A stretch of 64,000 nt of DNA from a virus. The stretch spans positions 62,001-126,000 of the IMG/VR virus record IMGVR_UViG_3300021354_000450; one strand, given 5' to 3'. The notes beneath the pieces are model-generated. The model did not search any database, had not been told where the DNA came from, and saw only the letters and a list, made by a program, of their open reading frames with translations. Numbering within the stretch: the first letter of the stretch is position 1; each line of letters begins with the position of its first letter. The position numbers and the translations under genes are program-made. This document shows positions 3,011 through 52,400 of this stretch, in pieces.

Positions 3011-3049
3011 GAAAAGGGTATTGACATGCCCTTTTCTTCCCAATATACT
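3011..3049 (+). promoter_or_regulatory. Sigma70-type promoter with -35 in a hairpin loop
   Basis: TTGACA (3021-3026) and TATACT (3044-3049) are spaced by 17 bases. The -35 lies in the 10-base loop of a perfect 8-bp inverted repeat (GAAAAGGG 3011-3018, CCCTTTTC 3029-3036). In read-through mRNA from mazG the repeat could act as a weak terminator or as an mRNA end; the promoter then restarts transcription for gp44. Confidence 0.7.
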
Positions 3050-3081
3050 AGCACAAATTAACACACAAAGAGAGAAAAAAT

Positions 3082-4005
3082 ATGGCAAAAGCATTATGGG
3101 TTGAACAATACCGTCCAAATACCGTTGATGGGTATGTATTTCGAGATGACAATCAAAAGAAACAAATTTTATCTTGGATTAAAGATAGATCAATCCCGCA
3201 CTTGATGTTAAGTGGAGCACCTGGTATCGGTAAAACAACTTTAGCAAAATTATTGCTTCATGAAATTGATATTCCTGATTTTGATGTTCTTGAAATGAAC
3301 GCTTCGAGAGAACGTGGTATTAAAGAAGTTCAAGAACGAATTACAAACTTTATTAGTATGATTCCTTTTGGACCATTTAAAGTTGTATTATTAGATGAAG
3401 CAGATTACTTAACTCCAGATGCACAGGCTGCGTTAAGAGGAGTAATGGAGGAGTTTTCAGGTACTAGTCGTTTTATTTTAACATGTAATCATCCTAATAA
3501 AATTATTCCAGCAATTCATAGTCGTTGTCAACAAATGCATTTTACAAGCATTGATCAAACAGAATTTACTGCTCGTGTTGCAACAATTTTAGTTGAAGAA
3601 AATGTTGAGTTCGATCTCGATACTTTAGATACTTATGTAAAAGTTACATTTCCAGATTTACGTAAATGTATTAATTTTGTTCAACAAAATACACAAGATG
3701 GTCATTTGCTTGGAGCAAAACAATCAGATGCAGGACAAGCTGATTGGAAAATACAAATGGTTCAATTATTTAAAGATGGTAAGATCAAAGAAGCACGAAA
3801 ACTTATATGTGGAAGTGCTCGTCCAGAAGAAATGGAAGACGTTTATCGCTGGATGTATGATAATTTAGATTTATTTGGACAAGATGATGATACTAAAGAT
3901 TCTGCATTATTAATTATTAAACAAGGATTAGTTGATCATGCATTAATTGCTGATCCTGAAATAAATCTTGCCGCAGTTTGTGTCAAATTAGCTAGATTAC
4001 AATAA
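3082..4005 (+). CDS. 44: Clamp loader ATPase subunit, T4 gp44-like
   Basis: This 307-residue AAA+ protein of the RFC small-subunit type begins with WVEQYRP (RFC box). Walker A is GAPGIGKTT (about residues 46-54), Walker B is VVLLDEAD (about 103-110), and the sensor/arginine-finger motif SRCQ follows. Four gp44 subunits with one gp62 load the sliding clamp onto primer-template DNA. A gp62 gene was not seen here and may lie elsewhere. It has its own promoter (3011-3049) and ends at a strong terminator shared with the convergent phoH gene. Confidence 0.92.
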   Translation: MAKALWVEQYRPNTVDGYVFRDDNQKKQILSWIKDRSIPHLMLSGAPGIGKTTLAKLLLHEIDIPDFDVLEMNASRERGIKEVQERITNFISMIPFGPFKVVLLDEADYLTPDAQAALRGVMEEFSGTSRFILTCNHPNKIIPAIHSRCQQMHFTSIDQTEFTARVATILVEENVEFDLDTLDTYVKVTFPDLRKCINFVQQNTQDGHLLGAKQSDAGQADWKIQMVQLFKDGKIKEARKLICGSARPEEMEDVYRWMYDNLDLFGQDDDTKDSALLIIKQGLVDHALIADPEINLAAVCVKLARLQ

Positions 4006-4014
4006 AAACAAAAA

Positions 4015-4057
4015 CCGCATACGTGATTTGCAGGTCGTTATGTATGCGGCTTTTTTT
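4015..4057. terminator. Bidirectional intrinsic terminator between gp44 and phoH
   Basis: CCGCATAC (4015-4022) pairs with GTATGCGG (4042-4049) around a 19-base loop, followed by C and seven T on the + strand and flanked by an A-run on the other side, so it can end transcription from both directions between the convergent genes. Confidence 0.8.
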
Positions 4058-4076
4058 AAATTGTAAGGTACTACTT

Positions 4077-4829
4077 TTAGTCTAATTCCTTGTAGATTGA
4101 TAAGATCTCTTTAACTACAGGGTGGCGCTCTATGTCTTTTGTTTCAAACTTTGCCATAGCAATCATACGGTTTTCACCTCCTTGGTCGTACAGACTGCAA
4201 AATTCTAGCAAACCATTCTCTTTTGGTCTGTCAGCTTGGTTTAAATCACCAGTGACAACCATTCTCGATCCTTCCCCAATACGTGTTAATAGCATTTTCA
4301 TCTGACTAGGTGTTGCATTCTGCATTTCATCAGCAATGATAAAAGCATGTTTGAATGTACGACCGCGCATATATGCCAATGGGCTTATTTCTAAAATCCC
4401 ATCTTCTAACAATCCTGCTACTTCTCTTGGGTGATAATACTCATGGAACACATCAAATATAGGTCTTGTCCAAGGCTCCATCTTTTGGTTTAATGTACCT
4501 GGTAAAAACCCATGTTCTTCATCAACAGAAACAGCTGGCCGGGTTACTACGATCTTTTCAATCACCCCCTCTTTTAATTGTTTAATGGCCCACTGAACCC
4601 CAAGCATCGTTTTACCAGTACCCGCAGGTCCGATAGCAAAAATAATGTGTTTCTTAGGATTTTTAAGATACTCGAGGTATTTTTCCTGGCTGGTATTGCG
4701 AGGAATTATGTTAACTTCGCGTTTCTTTTTGATGTAATGTTTGATTTCGATGAGGTTTTGTGCCTCATTTCCTCGCGGATCTGCACCATTTGTGCCGTTG
4801 CTGCGTTCGCGTCTCTTAAGTCTTGACAA
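4077..4829 (-). CDS. phoH: PhoH-like ATPase
   Basis: The 250-residue protein is a PhoH-family P-loop ATPase: Walker A GPAGTGKT (residues 67-74), the family block VVTRPAVSVDEEHGFLPG, Walker B HAFIIADEMQNAT (about 158-170) and a VVTGDLNQ sensor. The first 35 residues are a polar, basic extension. The start is TTG at 4829, supported by a strong Shine-Dalgarno (AAGGAGG) seven bases upstream and by the absence of any ATG before the P-loop. It is the only - strand gene in the first 28 kb and faces gp44 across a terminator. PhoH is common in marine phages; its role (RNA metabolism or phosphate stress) is unsettled. Confidence 0.92.
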   Translation of the reverse strand: MSRLKRRERSNGTNGADPRGNEAQNLIEIKHYIKKKREVNIIPRNTSQEKYLEYLKNPKKHIIFAIGPAGTGKTMLGVQWAIKQLKEGVIEKIVVTRPAVSVDEEHGFLPGTLNQKMEPWTRPIFDVFHEYYHPREVAGLLEDGILEISPLAYMRGRTFKHAFIIADEMQNATPSQMKMLLTRIGEGSRMVVTGDLNQADRPKENGLLEFCSLYDQGGENRMIAMAKFETKDIERHPVVKEILSIYKELD

Positions 4830-9689: not shown

Positions 9690-10511
9690 ATGAATATGGA
9701 CTACTATCAAATATTAAACGTTGATCGCAACGCATCACAAGACGAAATCAAAAAGGCTTATCGTGCCTTAGCAATGAAACATCATCCTGATCGTGGCGGT
9801 GATGATAACAAATTTAAAGAAATACAAGAAGCATACGCAATCTTAGGGGACGAACAAAAGAAATCGCAATATGATAATCCTCAACCACAATTTCACGGCG
9901 GCCCAGGTGGTTTTGAATTCCACTTTGGAGGTGGAGGACCTGCAGGATTTGAACACATGTTTGGTGATATTTTTGGATTTAGACAAAGGGCTCCTGTAAA
10001 TAGAAATATTCAACTCCAAACTCAAATATCTTTAGAAGATGCGTTTTATGGAAAAGAAGTTATCGCAAATATTTCACTTCCGAGTGGACGTGAACAAACA
10101 ATTAATGTAAAAATTCCTCCAGGAGTGCATGAAGGTACTAATTTACGGTTAAGTGGAATGGGCGATGATAGCATATCTGGAATACCACGTGGAGATATTT
10201 TATTATCAGTTCATATTACAGAACATCCAAAATTCAAACGTCAAGGTGATGATCTTGTTATCGAACATGAAATTTCATGTATCGAAGCAATGACTGGTTC
10301 TACGATTAACATTACAGGTATTGATAATAAACGATTAGAAACCACAGTTCCTGCAGGCATACAACATGATTCGATTTTAAGTTTAGCTGGAAACGGAATG
10401 CCAAACTTTAATGATCCTTCACGTAAAGGAAGATTATTGATTAGAATTAAAATTAGTATTCCTTCACTAACAGAAGATCAAAAAAGTTATTTAAGGAATT
10501 TGAATATATGA
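9690..10511 (+). CDS. DnaJ/CbpA-like J-domain co-chaperone
   Basis: The 273-residue protein has an N-terminal J domain with HHPDRGG (HPD at 32-34), a Gly/Phe-rich linker (about 65-100) and two C-terminal substrate-binding domains (about 110-270), without the Cys-rich zinc finger. This is the type II (CbpA-like) layout. It should recruit and stimulate host DnaK; no DnaK gene is in the window. The start is ATG 9690, although the second ATG (M3) also fits. It overlaps the deformylase gene by ATGA, forming an operon with def and clpA under a consensus promoter. Confidence 0.92.
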
Positions 10512-10996
10512 ATATCGTAAAATTTCCTGATCCAATATTAAGAGAACAAATGCCTTTATTTGATTTTGAGAATCCATCACATGATCCTGTTCAGTTAGAA
10601 CAAGATATGTTAGATTTGATGATTAAATTTGACGGTATTGGACTTGCAGCAAACCAGGTTGGTGAACGTGTTCGTATGTTTGTTATGGGAAGTAAGGCGA
10701 ATCCAACTAAAGGAATTGCATTTTTTAATCCAGAAGTGATTGCAAATACAGAAAATTTGCTTGATTTGGAAGAAGGTTGCTTGAGTTTTCCTGGAATTTA
10801 TGTTAAAATAAAACGTCCTAGCGCAATTAAAGCAAGGTGGCAAAATTCAAAAGGTGAAGTAATGGAAGGAGAGTTTACAGGTTACGATTGTAAATGTTTC
10901 CTTCACGAACTTGATCATTTAGAAGGTGTAGTTTTTCAGGATAGAGCAAGCAGTATTAAATGGGCTCTTGGTTTAAAAAAATTAAAAAGGAAATAA
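10508..10996 (+). CDS. def: Peptide deformylase
   Basis: The 162-residue protein has all three deformylase motifs: GIGLAANQ (43-50), EGCLS (89-93, metal ligand Cys91) and HELDH (133-137, two metal His and the catalytic Glu). The enzyme removes the formyl group from the N-terminal Met of nascent proteins. Phage deformylases are known in marine myoviruses and are usually short, like this one. It sits between dnaJ and clpA, so it belongs to a protein-maturation operon. Confidence 0.95.
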
Positions 10997-10997
10997 T

Positions 10998-13271
10998 ATG
11001 TTAGATCCAGATCAAGATTTAGAAGCGATATTTGAACGTGCTATTAAGTTAGCAATTAAAAACAAACATGAGTATATCACATTAGAACACTTTTTGTATG
11101 GTATGATTACTGATGCAAAAATTGAACAACAATTAACTGAGTTTGGTGCCGATCTCAAATCATTAAAATCAAATCTTGATAAATTTATTAAGAAAGAGTT
11201 AGATGACATTGTAAACATTGAATCAAAAACTCGTCCTAAAAAAACACACAGTGTAGAACGTATGTTAAATCGTGCATTTACACAGGTATTATTTTCTGGT
11301 CGTTCAACTATTGAACCACAAGATTGTTTTATAAGTTTATTTTCAGAAAAGAAAAGTTATGCATTGCATTTTATGCGTCTTGCAAAAATTGAAAAAGATC
11401 CATACCTTGAATTTATTAGTCAAGGCTTTGTAAAAGGCGGTGACTCAGATACTGAAGAAAAAGGTAATCCACAACTTGAAAAAGTCTTAGTTCAATACTG
11501 CGTTAACCTTAATAACCAAGTTAAACAAAAGAAAATTGATCCTGTTATCGGCCGAGATAAAGAAATTGATGATATTTTATTAATACTTGCTCGTCGTCAA
11601 AAATCAAATGTTATGATGATCGGTGATCCGGGTGTAGGTAAAACTGCAATTGCTGAAGGCCTTGCACGTAAAATTGTTGAAGGAAATGTTCCAAAATATC
11701 TTCAAAATCATACAGTTTATAACTTAGATATTAGCGCAATGATTGCTGGTTCGAAATATCGTGGTGATTTTGAAGAAAGATTAAAAATGGTCATCACGGC
11801 CATGGAAAAGAAAAAGAATTCAATTATGTTTGTTGACGAAGCACATATGATGAGTGGTGCTGGAGCAACAGGTGGAAGTGCTAACGATATGTCTAATATG
11901 CTTAAACCTGCACTTAGCAAAGGTACACTTAAAGTTATTGCATCAACAACATGGGAAGAATTCCGTAAGCACTTTGAGAAAGATCGTGCATTGATGAGAC
12001 GTTTCCAACGTGTTGTTGTTGACGAACCAAGCGAAGCAATGGCAATTAAAATTATCACAGGTCTTAAAAAATATTATGAAAAACATCATAATGTTAAGAT
12101 CACAAAACAAGCAATTGCCGACTCGGTAAAATATAGTGCTAAATTCATAACTGATCGTAAGCTTCCAGATAAAGCAATTGATTTAATTGATTGTGCTTCA
12201 GCAAGATTTAAAGTACGTGATGAAGAAGGCGGTGTTGTTGATCACGATGAAATTGTTTTCGAAGTTGCTAAACAAGCAAACTTACCACTTGAACAAATTG
12301 CGGCAAAAGAAAATAAAAATCTTAAAGATCTTGATAAAAATATGCATGGTAAGGTATTTGGTCAAGACTCTGCAATTAATATCTTACTTGATAAAATCTT
12401 TATTGCACAAGCAGGTTTAAAATCTCATAATAAACCAGTTGGTAACTTTTTGTTTGTCGGACCAACAGGTTGTGGTAAAACAGAAACTGCCAAGGTACTT
12501 GCAGAATCAATGGGTGTTAAACTTGTTAGATTTGATATGAGTGAATTCCAAGAACAACATTCAGTTTCAAAGTTTATTGGTGCACCTCCAGGCTATGTAG
12601 GGTTTGAAGATAATGCTGGACAACTTATTACACAACTTCAAGAACATCCTAATTGTGTTTTATTATTAGATGAAATTGAAAAAGCTCATTCGAGTGTTAG
12701 CAATGTGTTATTAGGGTTAATGGATAACGGATTTGTAACAGGATCAAATGGGAAAAAAGCAGATGGTCGTAATGCAATCATTATTTTAACTTCAAATTTA
12801 GGTGCAAGCGATGCTGAACGTAATGCAGTAGGTTTTGGTTCACAAGAACGTGAAGGTGAAATCAATAATGCTGTTAATTCTTTCTTTAAACCAGAATTTA
12901 GAAATAGATTAGACGGTATTATTACGTTTGGCAAACTTGAACATACAACAATGATTAAAATTGTTAAAAAATTCATGGATGAACTTAATGCACAAATTAA
13001 AGACAAAAATGTGCATGTTAAACCAACTGTTGAAGCTGTTGAATTATTGATCAAAAAAGGATTTAATAAGAAAATGGGTGCTCGTCCGTTACATCGTGCA
13101 ATTGACGAACATATTAAGAAACCACTTAGTAAAGAAATACTGTTTGGTAAATTAACAAACGGTGGTGTTGTTGAGATTGACGTTATTGATAATACTTTTA
13201 CTTTTAACGTTATCGAAGTTATGTCAACTGAAAAAGTTAAAATCGAACAAGACGAAGATTTAAAAGACTAA
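10998..13271 (+). CDS. clpA: ClpA-like AAA+ unfoldase
   Basis: The 757-residue protein has the full ClpA layout: Clp N domain (about 1-145), first AAA+ module with GDPGVGKTA (about 209-217) and FVDEAH, and second AAA+ module with GPTGCGKTE (about 489-497), LLLDEIE and a C-terminal D2 small domain. There is no ClpB-type middle domain. At the position of the ClpP-binding loop of ClpA (IGL) it has AVGFG (about 610), so docking to host ClpP is plausible. No ClpP gene and no adaptor are seen. Located one base after def. It may redirect host proteolysis or recycle proteins during infection. Confidence 0.93.
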   Translation: MLDPDQDLEAIFERAIKLAIKNKHEYITLEHFLYGMITDAKIEQQLTEFGADLKSLKSNLDKFIKKELDDIVNIESKTRPKKTHSVERMLNRAFTQVLFSGRSTIEPQDCFISLFSEKKSYALHFMRLAKIEKDPYLEFISQGFVKGGDSDTEEKGNPQLEKVLVQYCVNLNNQVKQKKIDPVIGRDKEIDDILLILARRQKSNVMMIGDPGVGKTAIAEGLARKIVEGNVPKYLQNHTVYNLDISAMIAGSKYRGDFEERLKMVITAMEKKKNSIMFVDEAHMMSGAGATGGSANDMSNMLKPALSKGTLKVIASTTWEEFRKHFEKDRALMRRFQRVVVDEPSEAMAIKIITGLKKYYEKHHNVKITKQAIADSVKYSAKFITDRKLPDKAIDLIDCASARFKVRDEEGGVVDHDEIVFEVAKQANLPLEQIAAKENKNLKDLDKNMHGKVFGQDSAINILLDKIFIAQAGLKSHNKPVGNFLFVGPTGCGKTETAKVLAESMGVKLVRFDMSEFQEQHSVSKFIGAPPGYVGFEDNAGQLITQLQEHPNCVLLLDEIEKAHSSVSNVLLGLMDNGFVTGSNGKKADGRNAIIILTSNLGASDAERNAVGFGSQEREGEINNAVNSFFKPEFRNRLDGIITFGKLEHTTMIKIVKKFMDELNAQIKDKNVHVKPTVEAVELLIKKGFNKKMGARPLHRAIDEHIKKPLSKEILFGKLTNGGVVEIDVIDNTFTFNVIEVMSTEKVKIEQDEDLKD

Positions 13272-13328: not shown

Positions 13329-13793
13329 ATGACACAATTAAGTAAAACATTTGAATTTTATAATCAATATTCAACAAACAATGCCCATACCACTCAGGCA
13401 ATCATTCAAATGCCACAGATGGTCAACGGCCGCACACCTCCTCCTGTTTTAACTTTTTTCAGTAATAAATTACCAGGTTCAGCTTATTACAAATTAGGTG
13501 AACGAATTCACACTGTAACGTATACAATTGAAGGTTCTTTTAGAGGAACATGTTCAATACAAGTAAGCAATAGCCCAAGTCCAATTGATCAAGATTGGGA
13601 AACACTTACATCAACACAAAAACAATATCTCGGTTTAGAAACAACGGGTGCTCCTGGAATAAGCGGGTTTGGTGGCGCAATAAGTCATCCTACTCAAACT
13701 GATATGTTTAATTTTACCGGTGATTATGCATGGATACGTGTGCAATTAGACATAAGTCGTGGAACATTGCAAGCCGCAAAGCTTAACTTTTAA
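13329..13793 (+). CDS. Putative virion protein under late control
   Basis: The 154-residue protein is rich in beta-prone residues with a central TYTIEGSFRGTCSIQVSNS stretch and DWETL, GDYAWIRVQLD segments, like small beta-sandwich virion proteins seen in marine T4-like phages. No catalytic motif. Its ribosome binding site is inside the hairpin at 13282-13324, implying it is not made from the upstream ClpA transcript but only from a late transcript, as expected for a structural protein. Confidence 0.65.
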   Translation: MTQLSKTFEFYNQYSTNNAHTTQAIIQMPQMVNGRTPPPVLTFFSNKLPGSAYYKLGERIHTVTYTIEGSFRGTCSIQVSNSPSPIDQDWETLTSTQKQYLGLETTGAPGISGFGGAISHPTQTDMFNFTGDYAWIRVQLDISRGTLQAAKLNF

Positions 13794-13847: not shown

Positions 13848-14243
13848 ATGAAACTATTTGAATTTTTTGGAAATATTAACCACGATGTTGATCGTGACAA
13901 AGATCGAGATTCTCAGGCTTTAACAAAAGAAGAAGAACAAGAATTTAGTGATAACGTTTTTTGGTATATTATTGATGAAGATGATCTACATAAAAAATAC
14001 TTTTTGCCAATAGCTAAAGATCTAAAAAAGAAATATGATGATACAACTGATGATGATTCAGTCGATTGGAAAGTTTGGCTTCCGATAGTTAATGCAGGAT
14101 GTACAAAGTACTATAAAGATCATAAAATCGATAAACATCCCAAAGATGCATTCCAACAAAAGTTTCGTATGGAATTGTGTAAACGTTTAGAAGACCACTT
14201 TCATCAAGATATCGCAAAAGGCGAATATAATTTAGGCAATTAA
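13848..14243 (+). CDS. Small acidic protein with MKLFEF start
   Basis: The 131-residue protein is strongly charged (many Asp, Lys, Glu), mostly helical, with no enzyme motif. Its first residues (MKLFEFFGNI) resemble those of the next gene (MKLFDLIHK) and the style of MRAREFIEE at 17817; similar short N-terminal peptides target internal proteins into the T4 capsid. The suggestion that it is a capsid-internal protein is inference. It ends one base before the 1085-residue gene. Confidence 0.6.
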   Translation: MKLFEFFGNINHDVDRDKDRDSQALTKEEEQEFSDNVFWYIIDEDDLHKKYFLPIAKDLKKKYDDTTDDDSVDWKVWLPIVNAGCTKYYKDHKIDKHPKDAFQQKFRMELCKRLEDHFHQDIAKGEYNLGN

Positions 14244-14244
14244 T

Positions 14245-17200
14245 ATGAAATTATTTGATTTAATCCACAAACCTGAGATTTTTTCTGAAACAATTGAACC
14301 AACGGATTTTAAAGACATACTTAAAGTATTTTTACCAATAGCAAAGACGATTATTAAATTAGATAAACTTCCAACTATTATACTTAAAAAAACTCTTTCT
14401 TATGAAGATCAACCAACAATGGGACGTTTTTATAACAAAGAAAACAAATTAGAACTCGCAATTGCAAATCGACAACCGGTTGATGCATTACGCACACTTG
14501 CACACGAACTTGTTCACGCAAAACAACATCAAGAACATAAAGATATCGATCCAACAACAGGTTCACCAGAAGAAAATGATGCAAATGTTGTTGCTGGTAT
14601 CGTAATGCGTGAGTTTAACAAACTTCATCCAGAATATTTAAAAGCACAACCTATAAGTGAAGGTGGAAATCTTTCAATTAACGGGCATGATGCAGAACAA
14701 ATAAATCTAAAAGTTACGCAAAGAGGATATATTGTTCCAATACTTAACAATTTATTACTTTCTATTAATAAATCATTTTCTCAACAATATCATGTTCCAT
14801 TATGGAGACCTGAACTACTTAAAAGTCAAAAGTTCTTAAGTGGTAGTTCATTACACTTTTTTAATGTAAAAGGTATATCAGATGAACAATTTGTTACTAA
14901 GAAACCTAAAGTAGGTGATATTGATACAATGGTTCCTAAAGAAAATGAAGCAGAACTTGAAGAATTCTTAAAATCTGTTCAAGGAAAACAAGTTGGACTT
15001 GCAACTTGTCTAGGATTTCAGCGTGGAAATGAACAGTTTAGCAGTTTATGGGAACTAGAAAACCCGCCAATCAAGGTTCAAATTGACCTTGAATTTGTTG
15101 AATTTGCAAACAATGAACCAACAGATTGGGCAAAATTTAGTCATTCAAGTTCTTGGGACGATTTACAAGCAGGAGTTAAAGGAGTATTCCATAAATTTCT
15201 AATTCAATCATTTGGAGTATTAAGTAAAAAAGAATTTATACTTCGAAAACTCGACGGACGAGGGGCAGCTCGTGTTGAAAAAGATTTTCCAAAGTCAGAT
15301 AGTATGCTATCTTTTGCAGTGAGCTCAAAAGAAGGCGGAGGATTACGTGCAAAATACGAACCGGTTCTTGATAAACAAGGTCTTCCATTGTTAATTGATG
15401 GGTTACAGGTAATGCGAGAATTACCTACATCAAATTATGATCACGATATTGATAAAATCTTTTTAACTTTATTTGGAGATCGTATCGGTCCTAAACAGGC
15501 AGCCGCACTTTCACAAGACTTTTGGTCGTTTACTGGTTTATTAAAAGTTATGAATCAAATTTTAAAACCTGAAGAAAAAGAACGAGTTGTTAAGAGTTTT
15601 ATTTCAAAACTTTTCAACATAGGCGCACAGTGTTTATATAAAGATGATCCTGATAGAGATTCAGTAGAAAAATCAGTTGCTGTAGATTTAATGCTCAAAA
15701 CATTACAAGTTTCTGCTCCGGATTATTTAGATGAGTTAAAACAGGATTATATTACCGATGTTAAAACTCCTAAAGTTAAAAAAACTAAAAAGGTAACTGA
15801 AGCTGATGCTCCAAATTATAAACGTCAAGGTATTCAACATATCTACAATCCAGGATCAACTGTTGAAATGAAGAACTTGGACTTTATTGATATGTGTAAA
15901 GAAATTGCTGATAATGGCGGTACATTAGATGGTATGGCAATTAACTTAAAAGCAGACGGTGCTGGGATTCGCTTTGGAAAAGATGAAGCAGGCCGCCCGT
16001 TCTTTATGACTTCAAAAGTTACTGAACCAAAATATGTAGATAATATCGGTGATTTTGAAAGATTTGGTAAAGAATCAGGTCAACCACCAGATCGTTTAGA
16101 ATTTACTAAAAAATACGATGCTGCTATGAGTTTGATCTTACATAGTAACTTTATTAAAGTATTACCACCTGATACAATTGTACAAGCAGAAATGATGTAT
16201 AATGATATGGCACAACAAACACCACAAGGATTAAAGTTTGTAAACATTCCATATGATCCTAAAAAATTAGGTAAATCAATGACACTTGTGCCGTTTATTT
16301 TTAAAAAATATAGCACTGGCGAGAATCTACCTGATGCAGATAAAATCAAAAAAATGCTGTTGTCAAAAAGCGATGCAAATATCAAAATGGTTAACAATCA
16401 ACTTGAACAAAAAGGTGTTAATGTTAGTAAGATAATTGCTCCTGTTGTAAACATGAAACCAGATCTTGTTGCTTCATTAACAGCTCGTACAAGAACTAAT
16501 CCACTTAAAGACCAAGCAATTGAAATTCTTACAAAAGCAAGAAAAGAACTTTCGGATACAATTATAAGCAGTCCAAATATTGTAGGGAAAGACCAATTAG
16601 GTAGCCACATCGAAGGATTGGTGTTTAATTTACCAAGTGGAAGACTTGCTAAAGTTACAAGTCAGTTAATGAAAGATACAATGGCTTCAAAAAAAGTGCA
16701 ACCTGCTCCAGCGAAAACAGATGGTAAGACTGCTGTTGTTGCAATCGGAAGTTTTGTTGGACATATTGGCCATGAACAATTATTTAACTACACAATTAAA
16801 AAAGCAAATCAACTAAATGCTGTTCCATATTTGTTTATTGGCAATGCAGTAGGTAAAGCTGATCCTATTCCGGTAAATGTAAAAGTTCAAACTTGGCATA
16901 AACTTTATCCTGAGTATGCAAATCATATTTCTGCTGTTACGCATGAAGGCGGAAACTTAATGCAAAAGATTAAACATGAATTAATCAATCCAATGCCAGG
17001 TCAACCACCTAAATATGATAATATCATTATTATGGTCGGTGAAGATCAAGCAAATATGCCAATTGCACAAGCTTTAATGAAAGCTGTTAACAAATTCCAA
17101 GGGTATGAACATGTTAAAGTAAGTTTAGAAGTTACTCCGCGTGGTACAGGAATAAGCTTTTCAAAATTACGTGATATTTTAAAAGATCCAAGTGCAAGTA

Positions 17201-17502
17201 CTGAACAACAATATGAAGTTTGGGCACAAGGATTTGATGAAAAGAAATTAGGTAAACCTTGGATTTTAAAATTAATGGAATTGACTAAACACGGAATGGG
17301 GATAACAAAACCTACTCCTGCTGTTACAACTCCTGATCCTATTGCTGAAGAAAATACTCGACTAGATTCTAAATGTTGGAAAGGTTATAAAAAACAAGGT
17401 ACTAAAATGAAAGGTGATACTCGTGTTAATAATTGTGTTAAAGTTGGCGAAGCATGGGAATCGGAAATTGGAAAATTAATCAGGTTGCTTGAAAACAAAT
17501 GA
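14245..17502 (+). CDS. Multidomain protein: zinc protease plus three nucleotidyltransferase-type domains
   Basis: This 1085-residue protein appears to hold four enzyme-like domains. (1) Residues 20-135: SprT-like zinc protease with HELVH (87-91). (2) About 190-500: Pol beta-type nucleotidyltransferase, with FLSGSS (198-202), DID (225-227) and a third Asp in VQIDLEF (281). (3) About 540-815: ligase-type covalent nucleotidyltransferase, with KADG (569-572, candidate nucleotide-linked Lys569), VQAEMMY (Glu649), HIEGLVF (Glu790) and AKVTS (Lys803). (4) About 826-1015: adenylyltransferase of the NMNAT/cytidylyltransferase fold, with GSFVGHIGHEQL (HIGH at 840-843) and ISFSKLR (970-976). The C-terminus has CWKGYKKQGTKMKGDTR, a tail I associate with marine T4-like virion proteins. 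Linkers carry IxE-type sites (ISE 137-139, IAE 1033-1035) that a prohead protease could cut. Domain identities are from motifs; the joint function (repair, RNA or NAD metabolism on injection) is open. Confidence 0.7.
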   Translation: MKLFDLIHKPEIFSETIEPTDFKDILKVFLPIAKTIIKLDKLPTIILKKTLSYEDQPTMGRFYNKENKLELAIANRQPVDALRTLAHELVHAKQHQEHKDIDPTTGSPEENDANVVAGIVMREFNKLHPEYLKAQPISEGGNLSINGHDAEQINLKVTQRGYIVPILNNLLLSINKSFSQQYHVPLWRPELLKSQKFLSGSSLHFFNVKGISDEQFVTKKPKVGDIDTMVPKENEAELEEFLKSVQGKQVGLATCLGFQRGNEQFSSLWELENPPIKVQIDLEFVEFANNEPTDWAKFSHSSSWDDLQAGVKGVFHKFLIQSFGVLSKKEFILRKLDGRGAARVEKDFPKSDSMLSFAVSSKEGGGLRAKYEPVLDKQGLPLLIDGLQVMRELPTSNYDHDIDKIFLTLFGDRIGPKQAAALSQDFWSFTGLLKVMNQILKPEEKERVVKSFISKLFNIGAQCLYKDDPDRDSVEKSVAVDLMLKTLQVSAPDYLDELKQDYITDVKTPKVKKTKKVTEADAPNYKRQGIQHIYNPGSTVEMKNLDFIDMCKEIADNGGTLDGMAINLKADGAGIRFGKDEAGRPFFMTSKVTEPKYVDNIGDFERFGKESGQPPDRLEFTKKYDAAMSLILHSNFIKVLPPDTIVQAEMMYNDMAQQTPQGLKFVNIPYDPKKLGKSMTLVPFIFKKYSTGENLPDADKIKKMLLSKSDANIKMVNNQLEQKGVNVSKIIAPVVNMKPDLVASLTARTRTNPLKDQAIEILTKARKELSDTIISSPNIVGKDQLGSHIEGLVFNLPSGRLAKVTSQLMKDTMASKKVQPAPAKTDGKTAVVAIGSFVGHIGHEQLFNYTIKKANQLNAVPYLFIGNAVGKADPIPVNVKVQTWHKLYPEYANHISAVTHEGGNLMQKIKHELINPMPGQPPKYDNIIIMVGEDQANMPIAQALMKAVNKFQGYEHVKVSLEVTPRGTGISFSKLRDILKDPSASTEQQYEVWAQGFDEKKLGKPWILKLMELTKHGMGITKPTPAVTTPDPIAEENTRLDSKCWKGYKKQGTKMKGDTRVNNCVKVGEAWESEIGKLIRLLENK

Positions 17503-17816
17503 GACAGTATAATATAACAAGTGAACATATTCCTCAAGATAGTTCAGATGATGCGTACCTTGCTCCAGATGATCCTTTACAAGAATTAAAAATTGTTCAA
17601 TATCTTGCCGGATTAGGTGCAGAAGCACGTTTACAAGAGTATCGTGCAAAAAATGCACACAACAATGAAATAAATAAGGGAAGTAATGTTTCGTTAACTG
17701 GAAATGAAAAAGGTGAGTTAATGAAGAAAAACAATATTAAACCAGGTACTGATGAATGGTTTAAACTTTGGTTTAGTAGACCATATCTCACAAATGAAAA
17801 GCCTGTAGGAAAATAA
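17499..17816 (+). CDS. Conserved small protein of marine T4-like phages
   Basis: The 105-residue protein overlaps the end of the large gene by ATGA. It has ITSEHIPQDSSDDAYLAPDD near the N-terminus and GTDEWFKLWFSRPYLTNEKP at the C-terminus, both of which I recognise in hypothetical proteins of marine T4-like phages. No membrane or catalytic motif. It belongs to the virion-type operon 13848-19701. Function unknown. Confidence 0.65.
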   Translation: MRQYNITSEHIPQDSSDDAYLAPDDPLQELKIVQYLAGLGAEARLQEYRAKNAHNNEINKGSNVSLTGNEKGELMKKNNIKPGTDEWFKLWFSRPYLTNEKPVGK

Positions 17817-18182
17817 ATGAGAGCAAGAGAATTTATAGAAGAAAGCAAACTTCGTAAAAGTGCAGTTTCAAGTATACCCGGTGCTCAACAGTATCCTGAA
17901 TTAGATAATAGCAATCCTTATCATTCTTATAGATTTGGGGTAGCAATGGCAGGGGCTCCTGACTTCATGGCAGATAAAGACGGTCCAACTGGACAACATT
18001 TGGTTACAATTGGATACACAAGTGCATGTGATGAAATTACAAATGCGGCGTCAAAACATTTAGGTTTTAAATCAAAAAAATTAACACCTAAAGATAGTAC
18101 AGAAGTAGATACTACAGGTAAACATAGTCCGGTTTCAAATTGGTTGAAACCTACAAAAAAAGAGAAGAGTAAAAAGAAATGA
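17817..18182 (+). CDS. Putative capsid-associated protein (MRAREFIEE start)
   Basis: The 121-residue protein starts immediately after the previous stop. The N-terminus MRAREFIEESKL resembles T4 capsid-targeting peptides (MKTYQEFI...), and the middle (PELDNSNPYHSYRFGVAMAG) is a block shared with hypothetical proteins of marine T4-like phages. The tail is very Lys-rich. A packaged internal protein is plausible by inference. It overlaps the HAD gene by ATGA. Confidence 0.6.
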   Translation: MRAREFIEESKLRKSAVSSIPGAQQYPELDNSNPYHSYRFGVAMAGAPDFMADKDGPTGQHLVTIGYTSACDEITNAASKHLGFKSKKLTPKDSTEVDTTGKHSPVSNWLKPTKKEKSKKK

Positions 18183-30286: not shown

Positions 30287-30979
30287 GTGTCAAATCAAAC
30301 AGTAAGCGAAAAAATTCGCACTCAATTAAAAACTAGCGGAAAACGTTTTTGGGCAGGAGATAATATCTCTGAATTTGTTAGTGAAAGCGATAAAATTAAT
30401 CTTATCATTGAAGCAACACGTGCTTTCGAACTTGTTTTAGATTCATTACTAATAGACCGTGAAACAGATCCAAACTCACAAGGTACTGCCCGCAGGCTTG
30501 CAAAAATGTACTTTAATGAAATTATGGCTGGACGGTATGATCCGGCTCCGGATGCAACAAGTTTTCCTAATGATAGCGATGACCGGTATGAAGGAATGTT
30601 GGTTGTACGAAGTGAATTAAAGTCAATGTGTTCACATCATCACCAACCTGTTAGTGGTGTAGCATATATCGGTATTATTGCTGCACAAAAACTTATTGGT
30701 TTATCAAAATATTCTAGAATTGCACAATGGTGTGCAAGACGTGGAACACTTCAAGAAGAACTATGTAACGATATTGCACGTGAAATTAGTCTAGCAACAG
30801 GCAGTGATAATATTGGTGTTTATTTAGAGGCCGAGCATGGCTGTTGCCTAAATAGAGGTATAATGGCTCACTCGAGTTTAACTCAAACAACTGTGCTTAG
30901 AGGAGCATTTAGAACTGATCCAAGTACTAAGAAAGAGTTCTTTGATAACATCAAACTTCAATCAAGAAACGGAAAATAA
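30287..30979 (+). CDS. folE: GTP cyclohydrolase I
   Basis: The 230-residue protein starts at GTG with CGGAGA upstream and has the FolE zinc and active-site pattern: CSHHHQPVSGVAYI (Cys115, His117-119), LIGLSKYSRIAQWCARRGTLQEEL (about 136-159) and EAEHGCCLNRGI (Cys186/187). It makes dihydroneopterin triphosphate from GTP, the first step to 7-deazaguanine (with QueD and QueE) or to folate. The usual CEHH is CSHH here. A small hairpin (30252-30269) sits in the leader. Confidence 0.92.
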   Translation: MSNQTVSEKIRTQLKTSGKRFWAGDNISEFVSESDKINLIIEATRAFELVLDSLLIDRETDPNSQGTARRLAKMYFNEIMAGRYDPAPDATSFPNDSDDRYEGMLVVRSELKSMCSHHHQPVSGVAYIGIIAAQKLIGLSKYSRIAQWCARRGTLQEELCNDIAREISLATGSDNIGVYLEAEHGCCLNRGIMAHSSLTQTTVLRGAFRTDPSTKKEFFDNIKLQSRNGK

Positions 30980-30980
30980 T

Positions 30981-31271
30981 ATGATTTTTAAAAAATGGTT
31001 TAATCGTAAAGTTAAAGAAGCAATCCAATCAATCCAATCAGATAATCAACGAACCCCTAAACCAATGGAAAATTATGTCAATCAGTCAATTGACTGTGAT
31101 AAAGGTATTCGATTTAAAGTTTTAAAAGCACAAGGTGGAACCATTATAGAAACAACTTTGTGGGATAATCGAAAATCTGACAATAATTTCGGACTTTATA
31201 TTATAAGAGATGATGAAGATCTTGGTCAAGGTATTGCAAAGATTATAACAATAGAATCATTAAAATCATGA
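30981..31271 (+). CDS. Small hypothetical protein
   Basis: The ATG at 30981 follows the folE stop directly and is preferred to an in-frame start inside folE. The 96-residue product has a basic helical start (MIFKKWFNRKVKEAIQS) and a beta-rich C-terminal half (FKVLKAQGGTIIETTLWDN, GLYIIRDDEDLGQGIAKI). Similar small proteins occur in marine T4-like phages. No known function. Confidence 0.6.
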   Translation: MIFKKWFNRKVKEAIQSIQSDNQRTPKPMENYVNQSIDCDKGIRFKVLKAQGGTIIETTLWDNRKSDNNFGLYIIRDDEDLGQGIAKIITIESLKS

Positions 31272-31453
31272 TCTGTTATATGAGTGAAGAGATTGATGAA
31301 GATTTTGGCGATCTTGACAAGCAAAATAAATGGTTTCAAACCTATAAGCTTGATCCTATTAAATTAGGATATATGTGTGAAGAATATCCAGCTTTACAAA
31401 AAAGTTGGAATGAATTTATGATAATTTATAATTTATGTAATGGTTTAAAATGA
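31268..31453 (+). CDS. Small acidic hypothetical protein
   Basis: The 61-residue protein overlaps both neighbours by ATGA (31268 and 31450), so it is a real coupled gene. It is acidic with several aromatic residues (NKWFQTYKLD, YMCEEYPALQKSWNEF). A second ATG at 31280 is possible. No recognised family. Confidence 0.55.
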   Translation: MICYMSEEIDEDFGDLDKQNKWFQTYKLDPIKLGYMCEEYPALQKSWNEFMIIYNLCNGLK

Positions 31454-31950
31454 ACAAATTAATTTTAGATGATGCAAAATTTAAAAACTTAGTTGCAAAT
31501 CTCTGTAGAGAAATTTCACTTAGTAATTGGAAACCTGACTATGTTGTTGGGCTAACACGCGGTGGTTTATTACCTGCTGTTATGATTAGTCATTACTTTG
31601 AAATTCCGTGTGAAACTTTAAAAGTAAATTTACGAGATCATAAAACTGGATTAGAATCAAATTGTTGGATGGCAGAAGATGCATTTCATAACAAAAAAAT
31701 ACTAATTGTTGATGATATTAATGACACCGGTGCAACTATTAATTGGATTATGCAAGATTGGCCACAAGGTTGTTATCCAAATAATGAAGTTTGGGAATCA
31801 ATTTGGAACAACAATGTAAAATTTGCAGTTGTGGTTGATAATTTATCAAGCGACTGTGAAGTTAAAATAGATTATGCAGGTATGGAAATTAACAAAGCCG
31901 AAAATGATGTTTGGGTTGATTTTCCTTACGAAGAATGGTGGACAAAATAA
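31450..31950 (+). CDS. Phosphoribosyltransferase
   Basis: The 166-residue type I PRTase has VVGLTRGGLLPAVMIS (32-47) and the PRPP loop KKILIVDDINDTGAT (82-96) with the diagnostic DD and TGAT. The size resembles hypoxanthine or xanthine phosphoribosyltransferases. Its substrate cannot be read from the sequence. Near folE and queE it could act on purine or deazapurine bases, or simply in salvage. Confidence 0.88.
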   Translation: MNKLILDDAKFKNLVANLCREISLSNWKPDYVVGLTRGGLLPAVMISHYFEIPCETLKVNLRDHKTGLESNCWMAEDAFHNKKILIVDDINDTGATINWIMQDWPQGCYPNNEVWESIWNNNVKFAVVVDNLSSDCEVKIDYAGMEINKAENDVWVDFPYEEWWTK

Positions 31951-32319
31951 ATGGCAAGATTAGAAGGATTTGTTGAGAAAGGTTGGGGACACGAAATGAT
32001 CTGGTCAACTAATGACAAGTACTGTGGGAAACTTATGCACTTTAATGAAGGTGCAAAGTTTTCAATGCATTTTCATGCTGAAAAAGACGAAACTTGGTTA
32101 GTGCTAAGTGGCTGTTTTATTGTTGAATATATCGATACAACTGATGCATTAGTTCGTTCAAAAACTTTAACAAAAAATAGTGTTTGGAGGAACGAACCGT
32201 TAGTTCCTCACAGACTTATTTGTGTTGAGAAAGGTGATATTATTGAAGTATCAACTCCGGATAGTGTTGAAGACAATTATCGTATATTACCAGGTGATAG
32301 TCAAAAATTAATAAAATAG
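31951..32319 (+). CDS. Cupin-fold protein
   Basis: The 122-residue single-domain cupin has MHFHAEKDETWLVLSG (His40, His42, Glu47) and VPHRL (His87), the metal set of cupin motif 1 and 2. It resembles the cupin half of mannose-6-phosphate isomerase/guanylyltransferase proteins. It starts directly after the PRTase gene. Could be a sugar isomerase or epimerase supplying the glycosyltransferase, but the substrate is unknown. Confidence 0.75.
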   Translation: MARLEGFVEKGWGHEMIWSTNDKYCGKLMHFNEGAKFSMHFHAEKDETWLVLSGCFIVEYIDTTDALVRSKTLTKNSVWRNEPLVPHRLICVEKGDIIEVSTPDSVEDNYRILPGDSQKLIK

Positions 32320-32348
32320 TTGATTTTATTTTAAAGTTCATGTATAAT
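32320..32348 (+). promoter_or_regulatory. Sigma70-type promoter before the Cys-rich gene and queE
   Basis: TTGATT (32320-32325), 17-base spacer, TATAAT (32343-32348). The leader would be about 14 bases and contains AGGAGG (32359-32364) close to the ATG at 32369. Confidence 0.65.
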
Positions 32349-32368
32349 AAATTTTTTTAGGAGGTTGT

Positions 32369-32527
32369 ATGAGTTGTGGTTGCGGTCGTAGTCCAACAGG
32401 TGAGTGTTGCGGTTGGCATGGTTTATCTGAAGATGCTTATAGACAAAAATTAGCTGAGTATGATAATAAAAATGTCGAAGTTCAAACTGAAGTAAACAAC
32501 TCTGGAAATGATAGTGAGCAAGATTAA
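32369..32527 (+). CDS. Cys-rich 52-residue protein
   Basis: This short gene starts with MSCGCGRSPTGECCGWHGLS and continues with an acidic helix. Four Cys in the pattern CxCx8CC plus a His suggest a small metal site. It has a strong AGGAGG and its own promoter. The start block resembles small proteins of marine T4-like phages. It overlaps queE by 20 bases. Possibly a zinc-ribbon regulator or a partner of QueE; unproven. Confidence 0.65.
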   Translation: MSCGCGRSPTGECCGWHGLSEDAYRQKLAEYDNKNVEVQTEVNNSGNDSEQD

Positions 32528-33356
32528 AGTAGCGGAACTTTTCTACTCAATTCAAGGTGAAGGAAGATATATGGGAGTACCATCTATCTTCTTACGTACT
32601 TTTGGTTGTAATTTTTCTTGTAAGGGATTTGGTATGCTTCGAGGTAATATAAGTGAAGAATACTTGACTGTTAATCCAGAACTATATACAAAATACGATC
32701 AGCTGCCATTAGTTAGCACAGGATGTGATAGTTATGCAAGTTGGGATCCGAGATTTAAAAATCTTAGTCCTTTACTTGATACTGATGAAATTGCTGAAAG
32801 TATTATCGAAATGTTACCATTTAAAGAATGGCGTGATGAACATCTTGTGATTACAGGTGGTGAACCGTTATTAGGTTGGCAACGAGCTTTTCCTGATTTA
32901 CTTGACCATCCTAAAATGCAAGGATTAAAAGAAATTACATTTGAAACAAATGGTACTCAACCGTTGACTGATCAATTTAAATTGTATCTTTATAATTGGC
33001 AATTACAACAACCTGGAAGAGAAGTTACATTTAGTGTTAGTGCAAAATTAAGTGTAAGTGGTGAACATCCTGATCAAGCAATTCGTCCTGAGATTGTTTG
33101 TGGCTATGAAGATGTTGGATATACTTATCTTAAATTTGTTGTTGCATCTGAAGAAGATGCAGAAGAAGCATTAGAAGCAGTTGACATTTACCGTGCCGAA
33201 GGATTCATTGGGCCAGTTTATTTAATGCCCGTCGGTGGTGTTGAAAGTGTTTATACTTTAAATAATCGCACAGTTGCAGAATTAGCAATGAAAATAGGGT
33301 TAAGATATAGTGATAGATTACAAGTGCCGTTGTTCAAGAACGCGTGGAGTACATAA
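32508..33356 (+). CDS. queE: QueE, 7-carboxy-7-deazaguanine synthase (radical SAM) with altered Cys motif
   Basis: The 282-residue protein starts AELFYSIQGEGRYMGVPSIFLR, the QueE signature, and has CNFSC (Cys34, Cys38) and then, 34 residues later, GCDSYASWD (Cys73), equivalent to the CDTKHTW block of bacterial QueE. The motif is therefore CX3CX34C instead of CX3CX2C. VITGGEPLL (SAM site) and ETNGTQPL follow. It makes 7-carboxy-7-deazaguanine from the QueD product. No queC is found in the window. It overlaps the Cys-rich gene. Confidence 0.88.
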   Translation: MIVSKIKVAELFYSIQGEGRYMGVPSIFLRTFGCNFSCKGFGMLRGNISEEYLTVNPELYTKYDQLPLVSTGCDSYASWDPRFKNLSPLLDTDEIAESIIEMLPFKEWRDEHLVITGGEPLLGWQRAFPDLLDHPKMQGLKEITFETNGTQPLTDQFKLYLYNWQLQQPGREVTFSVSAKLSVSGEHPDQAIRPEIVCGYEDVGYTYLKFVVASEEDAEEALEAVDIYRAEGFIGPVYLMPVGGVESVYTLNNRTVAELAMKIGLRYSDRLQVPLFKNAWST

Positions 33357-49438: not shown

Positions 49439-52400
49439 CTAATTTTTTGGTAACTTAGCCAATGCTTTAGCAATAAATTTTGCTTGCGGAGTAGTATTTT
49501 TAGCCAAAGTACTATTTGAATCATACCACGAACTTGCAAATCGTTTAATAACTTCAAGTTTTGCACCTTCGATGATTGTAACTGATGCGGTATTAAGTGT
49601 TAAAATTCCTGTTGAAGAAATATTAAAATCAGAAGGAACACTAATATCAGCTGTAGATGTTGAATCATAGGCAATTTCTAAATCATGTTTAACAGTTAAT
49701 AACCCTGGTTTTAATAATAATTTTCCTTGGTATCTTACTTCTACCTGATCAGTAAAATTTGCATCTGAGGTAAAAGTTATACCTGTTAACAAATACGAAG
49801 GCGTTAAAACCGAAGTTGAAGTTGTATATTTTTGTGTTTCTTCAGTTGACAAAATTGTCTGATCTGTTCCTTGATCAATAACTTCGTAACCTGCATAATA
49901 AATTTCAGCAGGTGCTGTTCCTAATGTACTTCTACGTAATTGGCTAAGAGTATTTCCTTGTTTAATAAAAAATTCAATCCGTTCTTTTTGAATCAACACA
50001 ATTCCTGGACGATTATGACTAGGATCTGGTTCAGTTAAAACACTTGCATCTTCAACTTCTATTGTTTGATCATTTAAAGAAAAATTTCGAACCAATACCG
50101 TTGAGTTTGATTGACTTAATCTCTTATAATGGGTTCTTCCTAAAATATCACGAAATAATCTGTAAGCAACTGTTGATTCTCGATCTGCAAAACTTGTGAT
50201 TAAAACATAATCTTGAGAATTTTGATAAAAACCATTTCTTATCGTAACGGTTCTGTTATCAGGTCCAATTGAATAATCTAAATTTACTGTTAACGGACTT
50301 CCGTTATATGTAACCCAGACATAAGATGCATCAATACACGAACGTTGCATAACATATTGGCTACTTTCACTTACATTAAATCTTTCTGTTCTAATAAAAT
50401 CAGGATCGTGATTTGTAAATGTTGTAACTACAATTGAAGTTCCAGTTGAAGCAGGAGTTGTTAAATTTAATTGGTTATCTTGAATCAAATACTCTTGCCC
50501 TTCTTTAACTACAACTGCAATACTGTCACTAATTGACAACACTCCAGGAAAAAATTCAATTTGATTTGTTTGTTCATTTAAATTCCATTCTCGTAATGCA
50601 GCAACTTCGATACCATTGATATAAACTTCAATTTGAGATTGATCAATTCTTCCTAATTTAAAATCAATCGACTTACAAATATCAAATGTTGTTTGCTCAT
50701 TCTCAACTTCGTAATAAGTTAAAACAGGAGGTTTCAATCTTTTTCCATTTTTTGTTACAAAAACTTGATTATGTAACGGTTTTGCATTTCCTGGAATTGG
50801 ATTTAAAGTAAAAATTGACCTATTACTTGACGGAACTGTAATAATTTGATCAGTAATTTCACTAAAAGATTTTGTTGTTTCTAAAAACAAATATACTTGT
50901 ATTGTGCCTGATCTTTTAACTGTTATTCTTGCAGAACCACGATAATTTGTAAATGAATATTCCGGAGGGCTTATACTAACTCCATTAACTGAAACAAAAA
51001 TACTACCAACTTCACTATATCTAACAAACGAAGTAAAAACAGTTTCAGATAACGACGAAATCGAAGTTAATGAATCTAACAATTTAACCGTTCCTATTTG
51101 CATAGATGTAATACTTAGCCAGCCAGTTATTGGTGTAACTGAATTAAAAGTAAGTGTGTTATTTTGATAGTTAATTGTATAATTGTTTGAAGTAACAATC
51201 TGATCATTTAATAATACAGATACAGATTTTTCAGTTGATGGACAAATTCCAAGATCAAATGTTCTTATTGTTCCATCTAGATAATATTTTTTATTAATAA
51301 TCAACGGAGAAGAACTTACAGGTTGTGAATATACACTAATTCCAAATGCTTCTTGTATTTGTCCAGGAACGCATTCTTCAGGAGCAAAACTGTTAATTGA
51401 ATTTAAAAATCCATCATCATTCATTCCGGTAATATGTCTTGTTGAAGACGATCCACCATCTAAAATAATTTCACTTGGTGAAAGACCTAACGCGGTAGTA
51501 TTCTCTAAATTTCCACCGTTAACAATTGCATCTAAACTATCTTGATCAGATGGAACAACAGTACCGTCACTTGTTGAATATCTTAATACTACCTGTGTCG
51601 AAGATGTTGTGAATGCAACCTTTGGAATTGTAATTGTTGATGTTGTGATGTTTGAATTAATTTCAGTAAATTCTGATTTTAATGTTGCTCTTGCATACGC
51701 ACGAGTAGTTACAGAACTTGAAGTATGATTTGGGTTTATTGATTCTAGAATTGTTATAACCGGAGCTTCAGTATATCCACTTCCTGGATTTACAATTTGA
51801 ATATCAACCAATCCATTTGTTATTGTTGCAGTAACTGTTGCATTAATTCCGTTAAGCGTATTTGGAGCAGAAACAAAAACAGTTGTATATTCTGCAACAT
51901 AACCCGATCCAGGAACAATCATTGTTACTGTAGAAATAGCACCAGTTCCTAATCCAATTAATGTTTTAACTATAGAAGTCGAATTTACTCCATCAATACG
52001 TTTTCCACTTGCACTAGAATCTAAATTACTTTTTAAATAAACATTTACTTCTGTTCCAGAAGAAATAATCGTCGGAACTATAAATGTCTGTGTTGATGTA
52101 GACGTTGTTTTATAAGAAGTGTATCCTTCTTCAAATCCAAAATTATCCCAAGGAGTTGTTGACCACGGAATGTTGTTTGCATTCCACCCACCTGATGAAT
52201 CAAAAGGTAATCCAGTTACCTGTAATCCAGAATATTCGATACCAGTCATTAATTGAGCAAGATCTTTACCTGGCATTCCATATGAAGGGTTATAATAATC
52301 TTCGATTCGACTTGCAGCATTATATAAATCTAAATTTTTAGGATAGGTAATTTCAAGTATATCACCTGCATCTGGAATAAAAGATAACTTTAACGATGCA

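Follow-up and report, generated by a model that had tools for sequence, protein, structure and literature searches.

A protein with zincin, Pol-beta, RNA-ligase-type and HIGH-motif domains as a candidate capsid-targeted polyprotein of a T4-like phage

The stretch of DNA analysed here, referred to as the window, comprises 64,000 nucleotides (positions 62,001 to 126,000 of the IMG/VR record IMGVR_UViG_3300021354_000450) of a 141,321-base uncultivated virus contig. Positions 14245-17502 of its plus strand form a single open reading frame (ORF) of 1085 residues, which begins with ATG and is free of stops; the opposite strand has many stops in the frame read. From the N- to the C-terminus, the encoded protein consists of a leader peptide, a zincin, a nucleotidyltransferase (NTase) of the Pol-beta superfamily, an RNA-ligase-type domain, an NTase of the HIGH/NMNAT type and a C-terminal Cys-Trp motif, here called the tag. 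As in polyvalent proteins, two or more distinct effector domains are thus joined on one polypeptide.

The open frame and its domains

The features of the ORF are the following, a slash marking a predicted cut.

14245..14289, plus strand: N-terminal peptide MKLFDLIHKPEIFSE (residues 1-15), resembling a capsid-targeting sequence (CTS); in zincin-less homologues a comparable leader abuts the Pol-beta domain
14290..14661, plus strand: zincin metallopeptidase domain (residues 16-139) with HELVH at 87-91 and an invariant E110; weak Pfam matches to M78/DUF6782
14653..14670, plus strand: predicted prohead-protease site ISE/GGN, cut after E139; (I/L/V)xE/GGN-type in homologues
14662..15801, plus strand: Pol-beta-superfamily NTase domain (residues 140-519) with GSS, DID and QID, assigned by AlphaFold and Foldseek; phrog_19290, E 1.6e-28
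15793..15810, plus strand: second predicted prohead-protease site VTE/ADA, cut after E519; [ILV]xE[AGS] in homologue linkers
15817..16680, plus strand: RNA-ligase-type (KxDG) NTase domain (residues 525-812), assigned by motif residues, AlphaFold and Foldseek
16714..17289, plus strand: HIGH-motif, NMNAT/cytidylyltransferase-like domain (residues 824-1015), assigned by HxGH, phrog_3041 and profile comparison
17332..17469, plus strand: C-terminal KCWKGYKK...NNCV motif (the tag), which recurs on many unrelated phage proteins

The catalytic motifs sit where a first-pass annotation of the sequence had placed them: HELVH at residues 87-91, GSS at 200-202, DID at 225-227 with a third Asp at 281, KADG at 569-572, Glu at 649, EGLVF at 790-794, Lys at 803, HIGH at 840-843 and ISFSKLR at 970-976. 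Homologues were gathered from viral contigs and aligned per domain, and the motifs are conserved across them rather than occurring by chance. An explanation of the domains as inactive relics, retained as head scaffold or DNA-condensing filler, would suit the Lys/Cys-rich tag and the head-type targeting signals described below, but is hardly credible given the invariance of the checked catalytic residues in 14-31 homologues whose identity elsewhere falls to 24-35%.

Sequence profiles of the zincin, Pol-beta and ligase domains found no relatives in the PDB, and two of the three were therefore modelled; Pfam searches with the ligase and Pol-beta domains also gave nothing meaningful. The Pol-beta residues G, S, D, D, D are invariant in 27/27 homologues. 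An AlphaFold model of residues 138-515 reached a predicted local distance difference test score (pLDDT) of 92.4 and a predicted template modelling score (pTM) of 0.89, and nearly all of its top PDB matches in Foldseek were chains of Pol beta, Pol mu, poly(A) polymerase and TUT. As a lone query against viral contigs, the Pol-beta domain of the window recovered zero relatives. Membership in the RlaP family of Pol-beta NTases was rejected, RlaP being absent among the Pfam matches of 27 members.

In the ligase domain, K569, D571, G572, R576, E649, E790, G791, K803 and T805 are invariant in 31/31 homologues. The model of residues 525-812 (pLDDT 92.0, pTM 0.86) has RNA ligases at ranks 1-20 of its Foldseek matches (E 7e-5 to 1e-3, probability ~1.0, template modelling (TM) score 0.31-0.41), among them archaeal Rnl, Naegleria Rnl, T4 Rnl1 and T4 Rnl2, followed mostly by DNA ligases. 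The domain thus combines the ligase fold with the motif set of the Rnl superfamily, i.e., KxDG, Arg, Glu, the EGxV motif IV and the motif V Lys.

Conservation along the protein is highest in the HIGH domain (57-79% identity). HxGH and the LR of ISFSKLR are present in 31/31 homologues, and the Ser of the latter motif (S148 of the alignment) in 28/31, which makes it the only one of all catalytic residues checked that varies. HxGH and ISxTxxR, in the window ISFSKLR, characterize NMNAT enzymes of the HIGH superfamily. Residues 808-981 match PHROG 3041, 'cytidyltransferase' (E 8.6e-11), and in a profile comparison the domain matched the cyanophage NMNAT-like family with 96.9% probability (E 1.5e-10), whose own profile matches NMNAT structures (E 2.7e-6). 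NMNAT-like enzymes make nicotinamide adenine dinucleotide (NAD), and HIGH enzymes act on other substrates besides NMN.

The structural models, which the first-pass annotation had proposed as a check, gave the expected folds for the Pol-beta and ligase regions. Its proposal of three different nucleotidyl-transfer folds on one chain is thus borne out by folds and invariant residues, and the combination, which was unfamiliar to it, is indeed unusual. It overlooked the predicted processing sites and the tag, and did not see that the conserved core is limited to Pol-beta, ligase and HIGH.

In the zincin, H87, E88, H91 and E110 are invariant in 14/14 homologues. A Glu as third ligand is a feature of polyvalent-protein metallopeptidases (PMC5512222), and the HExxH found here agrees with this, with a downstream Glu that would lie in the next helix as it does in that class. 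The label 'SprT-like' given to this domain in the first-pass annotation has to be dropped: Pfam and PHROG searches returned no SprT family match, only weak matches to M78/DUF6782/DUF3920, and the invariant downstream residue is a Glu, so that SprT/Spartan membership is not supported. In cyanophage S-SRM01, for example, the zincin is a separate ORF. Two further loci (L004, positions 3037-4467, and L005) contain a 477-residue ORF with MKLNEFFHISE near its start, in which a deaminase-like domain (HAE...PCC, by motif only) is joined to the same zincin family; its sequence makes another capsid-targeted fusion possible.

Conserved core, leader and predicted cleavage sites

About 60 non-redundant proteins from viral contigs share one fixed domain order, with Pol-beta first, then ligase and then HIGH; of these, 37 consist of the plain triad, 13 carry the tag in addition and the rest are clipped at contig ends or contain extra pieces. 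The zincin is fused to only four of them (the window protein and those of L089, L170 and L186) and is elsewhere encoded as an ORF of its own. The conserved core is the Pol-beta/ligase/HIGH triad and the zincin is optional. In Xanthomonas phage X1 and Stenotrophomonas phage YB07, a Pol-beta protein, an unknown protein, a ligase and a HIGH NTase are encoded by separate adjoining genes, which indicates that the three enzymes are functionally linked independent of fusion. The C-terminal extensions of longer homologues gave no convincing Pfam domains.

T4 internal proteins have an N-terminal CTS of 10-19 residues that is cut off by gp21 after L/I-X-E (PMC9026906). Most triad proteins that lack the zincin have a 13-20-residue leader, for example MILNELFRPKKLVVE/GGN, MKLLELFSRPRLLSE/GGN or MLLNQLFAPKKLFE/GGN, and these leaders end in (I/L/V)-x-E/GGN, the form of a T4 CTS with its prohead-protease site. 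Two positions ahead of the conserved E of EGGN stands I, L or V in 25/25 distinct sequences of a first set and in 24/24 further homologues on contigs outside the set from which the hypothesis was formed. The T4-type propeptide pattern is thus found in 49/49 interrelated sequences (I or L 43, V 6), and L, I, V, M or F stands two before 24% of the other Glu residues in these proteins. An independent check came from named phages. In Campylobacter phage CP220 the Pol-beta homologue begins with MKLSELMFILEGGN, whereas the solo Pol-beta homologues of Vibrio phage Va1 and of X1 and YB07 are leaderless and start MGGN, which suggests that the Pol-beta domain naturally begins at GGN. Campylobacter phage IBB_35 also encodes a homologue (AEF56792). 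The zincin of the window protein intervenes between its leader and the ISE139/GGN site.

A further predicted site of this type is confined to the linker between Pol-beta and ligase, where [ILV]xE[AGS] occurs in 53/61 proteins against 9.0 expected when each linker is shuffled; in the ligase/HIGH linker it occurs in 0/61 against 1.9 expected. The predicted products of the window protein are the leader, the zincin (16-139), the Pol-beta NTase (140-519) and a ligase-HIGH-tag protein (520-1085).

The chain might instead be processed by the zincin itself, since polyvalent proteins contain zincins more often than any other domain, and these have been proposed as processors there (PMC5512222). This is very unlikely because only the four proteins named above have a zincin, whereas the zincin-less homologues, i.e., most of them, keep the sites that follow the gp21 rule. 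The zincin was rejected as processing protease on this ground and cutting of the gp21 type is favoured.

The triad lies in a conserved gene order that runs from a DnaJ-like gene through peptide deformylase, a ClpB-like ATPase and two small proteins to the triad and two further small proteins, with a DNA polymerase gene downstream. In the window, the neighbours are the following.

9690..10511, plus strand: DnaJ-like J-domain protein (phrog_14336 and sequence), close to the triad in 19 loci
10508..10996, plus strand: peptide deformylase (phrog_2890, E 3.7e-40), close to the triad in 21 loci
10998..13271, plus strand: ClpB-like double-AAA ATPase (Pfam AAA_2 1e-53, Clp_N, ClpB_D2-small), 27 loci
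13329..13793, plus strand: 154-residue protein with a weak phage virion structural match (phrog_13657 E 5e-4, phrog_14467 E 0.018), 15 loci
13848..14243, plus strand: 131-residue unknown protein, a syntenic neighbour
17499..17816, plus strand: 105-residue unknown protein, 31 loci
17817..18182, plus strand: 121-residue unknown protein starting MRAREFIEE, 27 loci

In one homologue (L100), a stretch like the 131-residue neighbour is placed between the N-terminus and the Pol-beta domain. The first-pass annotation had assigned the gene to a virion-type operon; this is only partly right in view of the conserved neighbours listed above and the DNA polymerase gene downstream. This neighbourhood, which is not one of head genes, and the leaderless MGGN starts in X1, YB07 and Va1 would also fit an unpackaged enzyme with several functions in RNA or DNA repair in the cytoplasm, whose EGGN is merely a conserved domain edge. 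Such an enzyme is improbable, as a variable leader ending in L/I/V-x-E before an invariant GGN is unexpected of a domain edge, and so is a further such site restricted to one linker. The window contains no tRNA genes as a sign of tRNA repair. Elsewhere in the window, a 4489-residue ORF (49439-62908, minus strand) lies upstream of tail-type genes, and genes for GTP cyclohydrolase, a phosphoribosyltransferase and a QueE-like protein (30287-33356) suggest, by sequence, synthesis of 7-deazaguanine for DNA modification.

Virion proteins of relatives and known systems

The genes for gp21 (PF03420) and gp23 (PF07068) are present on three contigs of relatives (G005, G008, G011) and on a tag-bearing one (G014). 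NMNAT-like proteins have been detected in virions of the cyanophages S-CREM2 (PMC10665884), S-SCSM1 and S-CBWM1 (PMC9602691), the authors of the virion proteomes acknowledging possible carry-over into the preparations. For S-CREM2, all 219 ORFs were compared with the 52 virion proteins. Its HIGH protein gp154 is in the virion, as is gp156, which is encoded two genes away and has the Pol-beta motif GGN...YSDIDLHLVV. The sole tag-bearing ORF, gp160, and the sole DUF6321-type ORF, gp137, are both virion proteins. A strict CTS-like pattern, written post hoc, is matched by five S-CREM2 ORFs, including a SAM hydrolase, a kinase and the HIGH protein, and 5/5 are in the virion (p 6e-4); with a looser pattern it is 6/10 (p 0.013).

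CTS-like N-terminal starts were seen in S-CREM2 gp6, gp12, gp13, gp14, gp136 and gp154 (L130, L131, L133). The start MKxFxxFLxE, which resembles that of T4 internal proteins, is found on the virion SAM hydrolase, the kinase, the NMNAT-like protein and others, and in the Cas9 protein (gp12) RFASFMAEAA follows soon after the annotated start.

The tag has the very conserved, lysine- and cysteine-rich consensus KCWKGYKKxGTKMKG..RVNNCV (17371-17439 in the window; loci L002-L081). It occurs 379 times across 367 phage records, which with few exceptions are those of cyanophages; it stands on unrelated proteins, in N-terminal, middle or C-terminal position, and is present as a single copy per contig in 12/16 contigs searched. 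The contig of the window has one copy; DUF6321 was not found on it in a search without positive control. Two other short Cys motifs accompany the tag, namely DUF6321, in 17/46 tagged proteins, and CYxKVKSRYxVWPSAYASGALVKCRK; they were seen in S-CREM2 (L130-L134) and at L021, L125, L127 and L129. Several cyanophages have tag, DUF6321 and the CYxKVKSRY motif on one protein, which in Syn19 and S-RIM8 is encoded directly after the small terminase gene.

Like IPI-IPIII and Alt of T4, the triad proteins start with a short N-terminal peptide followed by a site of the L/I-x-E type, and Alt is a cargo enzyme that is ejected into the host (PMC9026906). In T4, each cargo protein is a single enzyme or a small protein behind one leader, whereas the leader here precedes three or four enzymes and an internal site. 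Polyvalent proteins (Iyer et al. 2017, PMC5512222), which are thought to be delivered along with the DNA, have the same multi-domain build as the window protein and likewise include a Pol-beta NTase and a zincin whose HExxH is followed by a Glu. The window protein differs from them in its ligase and HIGH domains, which are outside the published catalogue: a text search of PMC5512222 found no HIGH superfamily or adenylyltransferase, and ligase is named there only for 2H associations. Furthermore, no ArdC-N was detected in the window protein and the predicted cutter is the head protease, not an embedded zincin. The protein is a plain member of neither class, since T4 cargo is of single enzymes and neither ligase nor HIGH domains of polyvalent proteins turned up in the text search of PMC5512222.

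RlaP Pol-beta NTases and ATP-grasp RNA ligases (Rnl1/Rnl2) form RNA repair sets in jumbo phages (PMC7824862). The triad likewise pairs a Pol-beta NTase with a KxDG enzyme of the RNA-ligase type; unlike these sets, it has no Pfam match to RlaP or RNA ligase, has a HIGH domain attached and is probably packaged. The NMNAT/cytidyltransferases found in cyanophage virions (S-CREM2 gp154, S-SCSM1 ORF91) have a homologous HIGH domain and in several cases a CTS-like N-terminus, but are solo proteins beside separate genes.

In Kyanoviridae and Straboviridae, a gene string encodes an unknown protein X, a KWDG ligase-like protein and a cytidyltransferase. As in the triad, the ligase-like gene directly precedes the HIGH NTase gene in S-RSM4, S-8S55, P-TIM40, P-RSM4 and S-RIM44; unlike the triad, the genes are separate and include the extra protein X, which is restriction-endonuclease-like as assigned by motif only. 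Homology of the Kyanoviridae KWDG family to the ligase domain described here is not supported (profile probability 2.9%). The family (KWDGAP; T4-GC 71; L128, L147-L152) has members in 468 phage records, chiefly those of cyanophages, is annotated as hypothetical and adjoins the cytidyltransferase gene in most inspected records. Protein X beside the ligase gene has RxKxDVxL...ISLKK, like restriction endonucleases (L121 6858-7862, L122 7016-7852, L147 3449-4483, L151 3569-4468).

Proposed role and its meaning

The protein is read here, with a probability of about 0.58, as a capsid-targeted polyprotein of a T4-like phage that is cut by gp21 at maturation and carries injected end-repair and NAD enzymes. 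This reading builds on the domains, their conserved active sites, their order, the L/I-x-E sites and the MGGN starts of solo homologues, from which we infer packaging, actual cleavage, injection and substrates of the window protein. Packaging is strongly suggested by the targeting signals, and the leader and site signals of the homologues also lend support to the guess of the first-pass annotation of an injected, virion-associated protein.

The short N-terminal peptide would steer the chain into the prohead core as CTSs of T4 internal proteins do. A prohead protease of the gp21 type would then cleave after Glu at ISE/GGN and VTE/A, giving, in this phage, a zincin fragment, a Pol-beta NTase that starts with Gly-Gly-Asn and a tagged two-domain ligase-HIGH enzyme. 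These enzymes would remain in the head and enter the cell with the DNA. The Pol-beta enzyme may extend nucleic-acid ends by nucleotides, and the ligase may seal ends, more likely of RNA than of DNA, the ranking of RNA ligases first by fold being the sole basis for this preference. The product of the HIGH enzyme would be a nucleotide cofactor in adenylated or cytidylated form, most probably NAD. Working ahead of phage gene expression, the set would reverse an attack by host nucleases or NAD-depleting systems.

The main rival accepts packaging and assigns the enzymes a chemical role. The HIGH and ligase domains would manage NAD and adenosine monophosphate against NAD-depleting or nucleotide-signal defences, by rebuilding NAD or adenylylating host proteins or signal molecules, and the Pol-beta NTase would modify a protein or small molecule. 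The HIGH domain, the best conserved of all, is indeed joined to the ligase without a predicted cut, NMNAT-like proteins are present in cyanophage virions, and Pol-beta NTases of polyvalent proteins have been proposed as protein modifiers (PMC5512222). The ligase fold, however, resembles polynucleotide ligases and not protein-adenylylating enzymes, and Pol-beta NTase and RNA ligase are a known repair pair of phages (PMC7824862). Direct NAD or protein chemistry is therefore considered unlikely, and injected end repair with NAD restoration is favoured.

Several points weigh against the favoured reading. Neither gp21 nor gp23 was found on the 141-kb contig of the window, which is possibly incomplete, and the leader of the window protein ends in FSE, the F two before E15 being off the L/I-x-E consensus. 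The 49 sequences with the EGGN site are not 49 independent trials, and shared ancestry partly explains the conservation of the site. The virion proteomes compared are from cyanophages and none is from a triad-bearing phage; the enrichment in S-CREM2 is taken as supportive only because two of the N-termini had been seen before the pattern was written. The Foldseek statistics of the Pol-beta model are modest (best E 6e-3, probability 0.99, TM-score 0.2-0.25), the low TM-scores being due to a match that covers the core only. Finally, the substrates of the four enzymes, and with them the specificity of the HIGH domain, are putative and suggested by family.

A phage cargo polyprotein of this type had no earlier description in the literature searched, which is not proof of novelty. 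At slightly less than even confidence, a polyprotein strategy is proposed for some T4-like phages, in which one leader serves a fused Pol-beta/ligase/NMNAT-like chain with optional zincin, and cutting by the head protease exposes the required GGN and yields an injected repair and NAD kit. If this is true, a kit for repair and NAD rescue would be pre-loaded in the virion before phage gene expression, and the head protease would double as a polyprotein processor, a trick known from animal viruses. It would also help to explain the NMNAT-like enzymes, SAM hydrolase, kinase and Cas9 in cyanophage virions, because several of these bear T4-like capsid-targeting N-termini, and would provide a sequence rule to predict injected phage effectors.

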